13,078 nt of DNA from SAR202 cluster bacterium Io17-Chloro-G7 (GTDB taxonomy: Bacteria; Chloroflexota; Dehalococcoidia; UBA3495). The notes beneath the pieces were generated by a model. It was not told the origin of the DNA and searched no databases. It was given only the letters and a program-made list of their open reading frames with translations. This document shows, in pieces, positions 1,158-5,103 of this stretch; position 1 is the stretch's first letter, and the number at the start of each line of letters is the position of its first letter. A program made the translations under genes and the position numbers. The DNA is taken from positions 1-13,078 of the forward strand of contig MUCU01000044.1 of NCBI GenBank assembly GCA_002817055.1, read 5' to 3'.

Positions 1158-2228
1158 CTAAGTTGGCAGTTCAATTTGCCGGGTTACGACCCTGGTCACA
1201 CCCCAACCGGCTAGCCATGCCGAGTGTCGACCGTCGCCTCCTGCGGTAACGATCACAATATCGTCCATCGAGCGGACGATGGGCACCAACGTTTCCGGGT
1301 CGTCTTGGTCTATCCAGGCAGGCCAGTTTCGGTTGCCCCAGTGAGCCATGTCTCTTAGCTGGCGGATTGGCATCCGCGCGTTCTGGTAGATAAATTGCCG
1401 GACGTCGGGTTTGGATAGTCCTGAAGTCGCAATGTCTTGCGCATGCTCCGGACACAGCACCACTACAATTTGGGCGCCTGTCCCAATTTGATAGTAGTTG
1501 GAGACCCCGCCGGCTTTCATCGTGGCGATGATGGTTTGCAACACCCCGTATCCAGTGGGCACCGTGGTTTCCATTACCGTATAAACGCCCCTGATGCCAA
1601 TGATGGTCAACGTGCTGTCGGAAGGTTCGAATCCCAGTTCGACATGTCTGGGTTCCCAAGGACTCCGGTCTTCGTTTTCAGCGAAGCAAAAGCTATACCT
1701 CCCCGGTGTGGAAAGAGTCGCCTTGTCCATCTCGCCCGGAATGAGACCTCCCATGTTGCGTATCACCAAGCGCAACGCTCGCCCGATGGTAGCGTTGGCC
1801 CGCCAGCCTGGTCCGAAACAACCAACATCGGAGTTTATCTCCAACTGCTTGGCGATGGGGCCGTTGACGATGATTACCGGAGCGCCACCGCCGGTGGTGG
1901 CCGATACCCCGGCCACGTTGAACTCCTCCTGCAGCACCGCCCGCACGGCGGCAACCACCACCGGGAAGTACTCAGGAACGCACCCGGCCATGACGGCGTT
2001 AATGGCAACCTTTTCTAGGGTCACCTTGGCATTGCGGGGTTGGATAATTCCCAGCGAGGATGCCGGGTCCCCTCCATATCCCGACAGCATCCGGCGCACT
2101 GCCTCTTCGGTCGGCGGGACCACGGGCATCCCGTCGGTCCAACCTTGCTTCCAACAATAATCCTGAACGGCTTCGAAGCTGTCGGGAACGTCAATGCGGC
2201 GGGCTTGCAGGGCTGAGGGATTTACCAT
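1158..2228 (-). CDS. Conserved protein of unknown function, possible UGSC partner
   Basis: This is a complete 356-residue soluble protein with no signal peptide. I do not recognise a characterised enzyme. Conserved-looking blocks are G-W-T-D-G-M-P-V-V-P-P-T at 29-40, T-T-G-G-G-A-P-V-I-I-V-N-G-P at 111-124, G-P-G-W-R-A-N-A-T-I-G-R-A at 139-151, and A-E-N-E-D-R-S-P-W-E-P at 173-183. The glycine-rich and charged blocks look like a ligand-binding or active site. Cysteines lie at 25, 83, 137, 171 and 259, with no CxxC pair. From memory, proteins with the TDG-PVVPPT opening occur next to, or fused with, UGSC-type domains; this is recollection and needs a search. Here it follows the UGSC selenoprotein gene on the same strand after 316 bases, so it may have its own promoter. 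The ATG at 2226-2228 has AGGAG three bases upstream, a rather tight spacing. Confidence 0.8.
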   Translation of the reverse strand: MVNPSALQARRIDVPDSFEAVQDYCWKQGWTDGMPVVPPTEEAVRRMLSGYGGDPASSLGIIQPRNAKVTLEKVAINAVMAGCVPEYFPVVVAAVRAVLQEEFNVAGVSATTGGGAPVIIVNGPIAKQLEINSDVGCFGPGWRANATIGRALRLVIRNMGGLIPGEMDKATLSTPGRYSFCFAENEDRSPWEPRHVELGFEPSDSTLTIIGIRGVYTVMETTVPTGYGVLQTIIATMKAGGVSNYYQIGTGAQIVVVLCPEHAQDIATSGLSKPDVRQFIYQNARMPIRQLRDMAHWGNRNWPAWIDQDDPETLVPIVRSMDDIVIVTAGGDGRHSAWLAGWGVTRVVTRQIELPT

Positions 2229-2544: not shown

Positions 2545-3075
2545 CTAGTCGCCCGTAACTAACCCCACTATTTCGGGAGCGAACTCGTGGGCCATAGCCC
2601 TAACGTCTTCGGAGCTTCGGGTAGCCAAGGGGCTGGGCAGGACCACGATGCGCACGCCGGGCATTCCCAAGGCTGTCGCCCTAGCGTGGGCTGCCCGGTC
2701 AAACGTGCGGGTTATAACGCTAACGGACGGTATGCCTTGAGACTCGGTTTTTACTGTGTCGTGGAGACCCCACGCCGTGCAAGAGCCTCAATCAGCGATG
2801 GCGTGAACCACCACGTCGCACTGGGATGTTAGCAAGTCGAGGGTCTCATCGGCGCACGGGGCGCTGTAGCTAAACTTGGTTGCGTAGACGACTTTTTCGG
2901 CCCCAAAGTCGTTGACCAAAACCTCTTCAAGTTCACGCAGAAACGAATCTGCGTGGTACTTGCGATTTTCCAGCAGCCCCACTACCTTCCCGCGCAAATC
3001 GGGAAGCTTTGGGCTCAGCCCAAGTTCTTCCGGCACATCTTCGGCGGTGGGGTCGAGAATCTGAATGTTGGGCAT
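2545..3075 (-). CDS. UGSC family selenoprotein (TGA at 2788-2790 read as selenocysteine)
   Basis: With the in-frame TGA read through, the protein has 176 residues: 95 before selenocysteine 96 and 80 after it, ending at TAG 2545-2547. The motif is Sec96-G-S-C99, a UxxC redox pair like the CxxC of thioredoxin-fold and reductase proteins, preceded by V-V-V-H-A-I-A-D and followed by T-A-W-G-L-H-D. This matches the UGSC family signature, whose members use Sec or Cys at the first position. Residues 20-60 (L-R-G-K-V-V-G-L-L-E-N-R-K-Y-H-A-D) also fit my memory of the family. Further cysteines are C74 and C86. The role is a presumed thiol/selenol redox or reductase function; the substrate is unknown. 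I chose ATG 3073-3075 because GGGAG lies seven to eight bases upstream; earlier in-frame ATGs at 3088-3090 and 3157-3159 lack this. The gene follows the GuaB3-like gene by 113 bases. Read conventionally, the product would stop at 95 residues. Confidence 0.85.
2738..2790 (-). promoter_or_regulatory. Candidate bacterial SECIS element for the UGSC selenoprotein
   Basis: In the mRNA, the apical hairpin CGUGG-GGUCU-CCACG (2774 to 2760) begins 13 bases after the UGA, and its 5-base loop begins 18 bases after the UGA with G in both first positions. This fits the known bacterial SECIS pattern (loop about 16-37 bases away, a G among the first two loop bases). A lower 8-base-pair stem joins UGAGGCUC (2790-2783), which includes the UGA itself, to GAGUCUCA (2745-2738), with one G-U pair. 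The element would bind SelB to recode the UGA. Confidence 0.7.
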
Positions 3076-3188: not shown

Positions 3189-4331
3189 TTAACCGACGCC
3201 GGAGTATTGGAAGAACTTTCCTTCGGTCTTAATGGCCGGTGCGATCACCATTTCGGCTTTGTGCAAATCCCGGATCGTGTATGCGCCGCACATGCCCATG
3301 GCTACGCGCAAGGCACCCATGAGATTCTGGGTTCCATCGGTCCTAGAAGTTGGTCCGAATAATATCTGGCGCAGGCTACCTTTGGTGCCCACCTTGATGC
3401 GTGTTCCTCTTGGCAACTCAGGGTGGGCGTTGGCCATGCCCCAGTTAAAGCCATGGCCCGGCGCCTCGTCGGCTTGAGCGAAGGGCGTTCCCAGCATCAC
3501 GGCGTCCGCTCCGCTAACGATGGCCTTGCAAATGTCGCCGCCCGTTCGAAAACCACCGTCGGTAATAATGTTCACGTAGCGGCCAGTGCGGCGGTAGTAA
3601 TCTTCCCTGGCGGCTGCGCACTCTAGGGTGGCGCTTACTTGAGGCACACCGACTCCCACGACTTCCCGAGTGGTGCAAGCGGCTCCCGGACCGACGCCGA
3701 CCAGCACTCCGTCGATCCCGGTCTCCATCAACTCTTGGGCCACATCGTAAGTCACGCAGTTTCCCACCACCACAGGCACCTTCAAAGCTTTGACCAGTTC
3801 GGAAAAGATTAAGCCGCGGTAACTGCGGGACATGTGTCTGGCGGTGGTGACCGTGGACTGCACAAACACCAAGTCCGCTCCGGCTTCAACGGCTAGGGGA
3901 GACATGCGTTTTGTATTCTGGGGAGTGAAAGAAACGGCGCATGTTGCGCCGGATGCCCGAATTTCTTCTACACGCCGACCAACCAGCTCTTCGCGAATGG
4001 GCTCCGAGTAGACTTGCTGCAGGTATTGGGTTACGTCTTCTTGAGAAGTGGAGATTATTTCTTCCAGAACGGAATATGGATCTTCGTAGCGAGTATATAG
4101 ACCTTCAGCGTTTAGTACGCCCAGTCCACCCATTTCATGCATCAGGCTTGCGAAGTGGGGGGAGACCGCACCGTCCATGGCTGAGGCTAAGACGGGGATG
4201 TCAAAGCTCCGGTCACCAATCGTCATTTTGGTGGAGGTCAACTCCGGGTTGATAGTCACCTGGCCAGGAACAATCGCCACTTCGTCGAAACCGTAAACCC
4301 TTTCCAGTTCCTTAAATAGGCGCCTACCCAT
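3189..4331 (-). CDS. guaB3: GuaB3-family IMP dehydrogenase-like protein
   Basis: The 380-residue protein is an IMPDH/GMP reductase-type TIM barrel that lacks the pair of CBS domains of ordinary IMP dehydrogenase, as in the GuaB3 group. The catalytic loop is V-G-P-G-A-A-C219-T-T-R-E-V-V-G-V-G-V-P, where the cysteine would form the covalent bond with the purine nucleotide. The phosphate-binding segment I-T-D-G-G-F-R-T-G-G-D-I at 256-267 and G-A-D-A-V-M-L-G at 274-281 are also present. The C-terminal P-R-G and G-P-T-S-R-T-D-G-T-Q-N-L-M-G-A-L-R blocks resemble mycobacterial GuaB3. The family oxidises IMP to XMP or acts on related purine nucleotides; the exact reaction here is not settled by sequence. 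The ATG at 4329-4331 is supported by GAGGT eight bases upstream and a good promoter. The UGSC selenoprotein gene follows on the same strand. Confidence 0.88.
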   Translation of the reverse strand: MGRRLFKELERVYGFDEVAIVPGQVTINPELTSTKMTIGDRSFDIPVLASAMDGAVSPHFASLMHEMGGLGVLNAEGLYTRYEDPYSVLEEIISTSQEDVTQYLQQVYSEPIREELVGRRVEEIRASGATCAVSFTPQNTKRMSPLAVEAGADLVFVQSTVTTARHMSRSYRGLIFSELVKALKVPVVVGNCVTYDVAQELMETGIDGVLVGVGPGAACTTREVVGVGVPQVSATLECAAAREDYYRRTGRYVNIITDGGFRTGGDICKAIVSGADAVMLGTPFAQADEAPGHGFNWGMANAHPELPRGTRIKVGTKGSLRQILFGPTSRTDGTQNLMGALRVAMGMCGAYTIRDLHKAEMVIAPAIKTEGKFFQYSGVG

Positions 4332-4981: not shown

Positions 4982-5103
4982 TCTCCTGGTGGTTCGAGCG
5001 AGGTGGACCCACCCGTTCCCATCTCGAACACGGTAGTGAAACGCTTCAGCGCCGACGATACTGCTCTGGTGACGGGGTGGGAAAATAGGTCACCGCCGGG
5101 GGG
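4982..5103 (+). rRNA. rrf: 5S ribosomal RNA
   Basis: The conserved 5S core is clear: GGTGGACCCACCCGTTCCCA then CTCGAACACGGTAGTGAAACG, followed by CAGCGCCGACGATACTGC. The ends pair to form helix I (CCTGGTGG at 4985-4992 with CCGCCGGG at 5093-5100), and pairing extends outward about three more bases, which sets the approximate boundaries and a length near 122 bases. Exact ends may differ by a few bases. No 23S or 16S gene is next to it in this window; the neighbours are protein genes on both sides. Confidence 0.92.

Follow-up and report, generated by a model that had tools for sequence, protein, structure and literature searches.

The window analysed here is the whole stretch of 13,078 nucleotides of contig MUCU01000044.1 from SAR202 cluster bacterium Io17-Chloro-G7. 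It carries a gene of the UGSC family with an in-frame TGA codon, between an upstream guaB3 gene and a downstream gene for a 356-residue protein, hereafter the partner. The features on which the argument turns are the following.

3189 to 4331, minus strand: guaB3 (IMPDH-related), the upstream neighbour, with a TIGR01304 match of 430 bits
3084 to 3088, minus strand: GGGAG, a possible ribosome-binding site 8 bases 5' of the ATG, read from the sequence
2545 to 3075, minus strand: predicted UGSC-family selenoprotein gene, 176 codons plus TAG, with the TGA read through
2788 to 2790, minus strand: TGA codon 96, predicted to encode selenocysteine (Sec), the U of U-G-S-C; TGA in the window and 33 related loci (34/34), TGC or TGT in 5/5 distant loci
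2779 to 2781, minus strand: TGC codon 99, the second Cys of the UGSC motif and the proposed resolving Cys, invariant in 81/81 rows of alignment A1
2760 to 2774, minus strand: SECIS-like hairpin CGUGG-GGUCU-CCACG with its loop at 2765 to 2769, invariant in 34/34 sequences, with no synonymous change, the loop of fdhF and covariation in paralogues
2737 to 2790, minus strand: longer fold enclosing the hairpin, −19.5 kcal/mol, z −2.2, with 6 of 200 shuffles folding as well
1158 to 2228, minus strand: the partner, 356 aa, without a Pfam or NCBIfam family, perhaps 'Unknown_1' of the GOS paper

Elsewhere in the window, a 5S rRNA gene (4985 to 5101, plus strand) stands alone, and the window gave no tRNA or other Rfam match.

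The UGSC frame opens with an ATG at 3075, reaches TGA (2790 to 2788) at codon 96, continues for 80 further sense codons and closes at TAG (2547 to 2545). A sequence-only reading had placed the stop and the open extension at these same positions, and the residues it gave, a U-G-S-C motif opened by the TGA and followed by T-A-W-G-L-H-D, were seen again as U96-G-S-C99 and its continuation. Its assignment of the protein to the UGSC family was borne out by curated models: the 176-residue read-through product scored 143 bits against NF041046 'UGSC family (seleno)protein' (cut-off 125) and 173.8 bits against PF24696 (cut-off 25), with residues 5 to 174 matched across the TGA and the U/C-G-S-C motif at the conserved column. 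Since the read-through product exceeds both curated cut-offs, the in-frame TGA is not a chance occurrence within the gene. UGSC selenoproteins have been known since 2007-2008, and the window gene fits this family well. It passes the curated cut-offs and has the U-G-S-C motif, but differs from the family as described in excerpts of PMC2398784 in being a stand-alone gene in a conserved guaB3-UGSC-partner order.

A scan of named genomes yielded 38 related UGSC loci, 33 of them close and five distant; L013 and L015 carry the same isolate name, hence the 33 close loci fall in 32 genomes. The nearest, L001 (Dehalococcoidia bacterium UBA1141) and L002 (SAR202 cluster bacterium Io17-Chloro-G4), are 90% identical to the window in UGSC and 93-94% in GuaB3. 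Titles of SAR202, Dehalococcoidia, Chloroflexi or Chloroflexota are borne by 30 of the 33 close loci, and the source bacterium is close to the marine SAR202 group. SAR202-like UGSC loci with 67-75% identity also occur under the titles Planctomycetaceae (L004), Proteobacteria (L031) and Rhodothermales (L032), reflecting either misbinning or transfer.

TGA stands at the same codon in all 33 close loci, and the frame remains open for about 80-84 codons beyond it (128 in L030), whereas all five distant loci have TGC or TGT at this position and are Cys forms. These CGSC homologues align across residue 96, in agreement with the earlier statement that the family has Sec or Cys at this site. When dN/dS was compared on the two sides of the TGA, the pairs used being those in which each side had a dS of 0.05 to 1.5 (200 of 561), the median was 0.114 after the codon and 0.161 before it; the sequence 3' of the TGA is under purifying selection. 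Gene callers cut window-type genes at the TGA, and the truncated annotation foreseen by the sequence-only reading is what the databases hold: the read-through product has 714 database relatives, the 120 listed all cover 52-54% of the query, most of them 99 residues, and, among seven truncated relatives inspected, six end one residue before the TGA and one diverges a few residues earlier.

Such truncated entries fit a true stop, a pseudogene or a sequencing error. That explanation is contradicted by the recurrence of the TGA in 33 loci from 32 genomes, by purifying selection beyond it and by the invariant hairpin described below, and we regard it as extremely improbable. Termination at Sec-UGA is common in principle when selenium is low, and the locus could accordingly act as a selenium-dependent switch in which a short product of 95 residues is made beside the full protein and both matter. 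However, the second half of the protein, which contains Sec and Cys99, is by dN/dS as conserved as the first, and nothing indicates a role for the short form, making a switch of this kind very unlikely.

The hairpin occupies bases 17-31, with the T of the TGA as base 1, and is identical in all 34 window-type sequences. Among rows with the majority residue, codons +5 (29/34 rows) and +7 to +10 (34/34 rows each) showed zero synonymous change, codon +6 being Trp, which cannot vary synonymously. Mean normalised synonymous diversity was 0.11 over the six usable codons from +4 to +10, compared with 0.76 over 54 upstream codons and 0.74 over 41 codons past +16 (permutation p 2e-5), and none other of 104 contiguous codon windows was as low; codon −1 was the sole other usable codon without synonymous change. 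Distant Cys homologues have neither the hairpin nor the Gly-Leu-His encoded by it. The codon directly 5' of the TGA is GAT (2791 to 2793, minus strand, in the window) and never GAC in the 34 window-type sequences; GAC is common at this place in paralogues.

The stem was also followed in the paralogues, represented by 73 distinct sequences. Its five pairs were standard in 87.7% of cells, against a mean of 70.2% and a maximum of 74.8% in 1000 shuffles and 22.5-62.2% when the register was shifted by 1 to 3, and compensatory C-G/G-C swaps were observed at pairs 18-30 and 21-27. All five pairs were kept in 55 of the 73 sequences, while 18 do not keep them in this register. The loop of the paralogues differs from that of the window, being AGUNU in 46 of the 73 sequences instead of GGUCU. 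The window loop is in turn the same as that of the E. coli fdhF SECIS, with GGUCU at positions 22-26 on the same count, although the stem letters are different; the fdhF query consisted of the 42 bases of its SECIS region and matched 5368 of 5426 E. coli genomes, the three rows shown being named fdhF. The fdhF SECIS also has a bulged U. The TGA in 33/33 close loci, the Cys homologues and the SECIS-like hairpin all uphold the original reading of the codon as selenocysteine, and, judged by these sequence comparisons, the TGA of the window gene almost certainly encodes Sec.

Searches for the selenocysteine machinery were performed in the relatives' genomes, which are draft assemblies. Among the 32 genomes with TGA-form loci, SelB was above the cut-off in 25, a strong tRNA-Sec (at least 64 bits) was present in 22, and one or both were detected in 27; in the draft assemblies of the remaining five, neither SelB nor a strong tRNA-Sec was found. 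We used the 64-bit threshold because the Rfam value of 47 bits was passed by 31 of 37 genomes and by 5 of 14 control genomes, and because the four weaker matches inspected in other genomes (39.7 to 52.8 bits) turned out to be tRNA-Ser or tRNA-Leu. ARAGORN assigned the anticodon UCA to all five strong tRNA-Sec inspected, which came from G001 (L043), three other TGA genomes and the archaeal G033. SelA was found in four and SelD in five of the five genomes searched. The genome of L001 (G001) contains selA, selB, selD and tRNA-Sec, while that of L002 (G002) contains SelB and SelD, with no SelA and no strong tRNA-Sec found in its draft assembly.

Two observations were made alongside these searches. 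The selD genes of G001, G002, G005, G016 and G025 (L049, L050) each have one in-frame TGA of their own, and SelD of these relatives is probably a selenoprotein itself. G033, titled Archaeoglobi JdFR-42 (L034 / L040), carries a tRNA-Sec with UCA and SelB above the cut-off, yet its UGSC is a Cys form; this case represents either archaeal Sec use or a binning error.

Among the close loci, guaB3 lies upstream of UGSC within 3.5 kb in 31 of 33 (the exceptions being L023 and L031) and the partner follows downstream, at most 2.7 kb away, in 28 of 33, incomplete in L023. As for the five loci without a partner, L003 and L010 end less than 300 bases from the match, L032 has about 2 kb more, and at L005 and L017 the partner was not found within 6 kb. 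In the distant relatives L035-L038 a single frame spans the UGSC and partner domains (for L035 one ORF was seen), and in L034 the two are separate neighbours. UGSC and the partner are tightly coupled genetically. The partner matched no Pfam or NCBIfam family, and at least 7,975 database relatives were obtained from 7,998 candidates scored. A fusion of UGSC to a domain termed 'Unknown_1' was reported in 2008, as described in an excerpt of PMC2398784, and the partner may be that domain.

To judge from profile comparison, the Sec half of UGSC is remotely homologous to the C-terminal Sec domain of the glycine/proline-reductase subunit GrdB. Alignment of 106 UGSC rows with 11 GrdB-type Sec domains by hhalign gave a probability of 95.4 (E 1.8e-8) with the Sec columns aligned, whereas a reversed profile gave 0.5 and 40 column shuffles at most 1.5; it is from these 11 GrdB-type sequences that the link is drawn. 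An earlier attempt had given 79.2 with five GrdB rows and 16.8 with six rows of a second type. The UGSC product showed no match to Pfam GRDB (PF07355) at E up to 5; in the GrdB-like frames inspected the GRDB match ends where Sec begins, so the model is blind to the Sec half. Compared with GrdB/PrdB, the Sec subunit of the glycine, sarcosine, betaine and proline reductases (PF07355), UGSC has a homologous Sec domain but is only 176 residues long, against 434-440 in the GrdB-like frames L051-L053, lacks a Pfam GRDB match and has a different partner.

Relatives also encode, at loci L051-L055 and L056-L060, L062, GrdB-like proteins with Sec of their own, mostly of the STUGTSTRSG type and read through a TGA, and shorter proteins resembling the GrdB C terminus, of UPLC and UPRC types.

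In the AlphaFold model of UGSC (mean pLDDT 93.6), strand and helix alternate through five strands, and Sec96 is placed between strand 88-94 and helix 97-112. The U-x-x-C redox motif, which UGSC shares with thioredoxin-fold selenoproteins, stands at the start of a helix, as would suit the published guess of a thioredoxin-like thiol oxidoreductase containing Sec, for which the partner would be the target protein. In contrast, the alternation of strand and helix throughout the confidently predicted model may set it apart from thioredoxin-fold selenoproteins, the profile homology is to GrdB, and a large partner that accompanies UGSC almost one to one points to substrate-specific work. A thioredoxin fold was not among the UGSC match lists, an absence that is no proof. 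We consider the thioredoxin-like role unlikely, and, given the GrdB homology of the Sec half, favour a two-part enzyme with Sec as the nucleophile.

In such a two-part enzyme, SelB and tRNA-Sec would decode the TGA as selenocysteine via a bacterial SECIS hairpin with its stem from base 17, and the product would be a single-domain UGSC selenoprotein forming one half, the other half being the downstream 356-residue protein. Sec decoding combined with a two-part UGSC/partner enzyme is, very probably, the best explanation of the locus as a whole. The Sec selenolate chemistry of GrdB serves as the model for what UGSC might do: the partner may bind and position an organic substrate, the Sec96 selenolate may attack it and break a carbon-heteroatom bond, and Cys99 may resolve the selenium intermediate in the manner of GrdB. 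This chemistry, drawn by analogy, is a possibility that we put forward tentatively. With somewhat less confidence again, we suggest that paralogues might differ in the imported substrates that they process when dissolved organic matter is broken down.

A quick tree, built from 89 rows, placed the window-type group on one side of a branch with a support of 43, and Cys forms appeared at several places among Sec forms, with four changes, two of them forced by starred branches. As far as this tree can tell, Sec and Cys have probably interchanged during the evolution of UGSC.

Paralogues are abundant in the class to which G001 belongs. With 148 genomes sampled and at most the best 22 candidates per genome scored, PF24696 matches occurred in 45 genomes, several having many. 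G064, a 5-Mb genome of the same class searched alone, gave 208 candidates, and all of the best 150, which were scored, were above the cut-off; 143 had one in-frame TGA, three had two and four had none, so that G064 has at least 146 UGSC domains with an in-frame TGA (loci L073, L083-L131). SelA and SelB were found in G064, and a search for tRNA-Sec there found none; G065 has SelA, SelB and a tRNA-Sec with UCA. In 49 loci from both searches, all 54 domain rows had a single TGA, located at the Sec column (two places were seen twice).

Contig C99 of G064 (340 kb of a 350-kb contig) holds 25 UGSC domains, 20 of them already listed, each with one TGA at the Sec column. Their mutual identity is only 20-73% (median 28%), indicating that the copies are not assembly duplicates. 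UGSC is in one frame with a partner domain in 18 of the 25 cases; the contig has 24 partner domains, all inside or beside a UGSC gene, and one UGSC domain has none. Two more stretches (60 kb) contributed 13 further domains that have TGA at the Sec column, plus a partial match of 20.8 bits in which this column is empty. Catabolism is suggested by ten chosen neighbours on contig C99, among them family-5 solute-binding proteins, an FAD oxidoreductase, an MmgE/PrpD protein, a TPP enzyme and a mannonate dehydratase.

The same contig bears on whether TGA might be read genome-wide as an ordinary amino acid, an idea for which no supporting sign was found. On contig C99, TGA terminates 73 of the 188 long ORFs, and the frame then stays open for a median of 24 codons, against 83-477 after the UGSC TGAs; since so few open codons follow, TGA is a normal stop there. 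Together with the single TGA, at the Sec column, in each of the 54 domain rows, this contradicts reassignment in the relatives, and under the standard code the guaB3 and radA genes of the window match their families over almost the full length. Reassignment is the least probable of all the explanations considered, less likely even than a true stop.

Record selenoproteome figures given in excerpts of earlier papers run from 39 (PMC5029168) and 46 (PMC12013277) through 57 and 63 for bacteria (PMC13188914) to 96 for the alga Emiliania huxleyi (PMC7539508). A 2026 review, likewise in excerpt, warns that such assemblies may mix strains; the 25 diverged copies on a single contig speak against strain mixing as the whole cause of the G064 copy number. 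In the literature searched, no report of an explosive UGSC expansion was found, and the main texts of a pangenome paper (PMC6946804) and a cultivation paper (PMC10444878) on SAR202 contain no word starting with 'seleno'. It is likely that UGSC/partner selenoenzymes radiated in this Chloroflexota class to the largest selenoproteomes known, which would form a Sec-dependent, GrdB-like catabolic toolkit for organic matter in which routine annotation misses most of each fused enzyme behind a 'stop' codon. If true, the G064 count would be more than double the largest bacterial selenoproteome that we found reported (63) and above the 96 of the alga.

The UGSC family gains a tightly coupled partner and a likely amino-acid-reductase ancestry. 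If the proposed radiation is real, selenium supply would be a factor in the use of organic matter by such bacteria, and cultivated SAR202 strains could make this testable.
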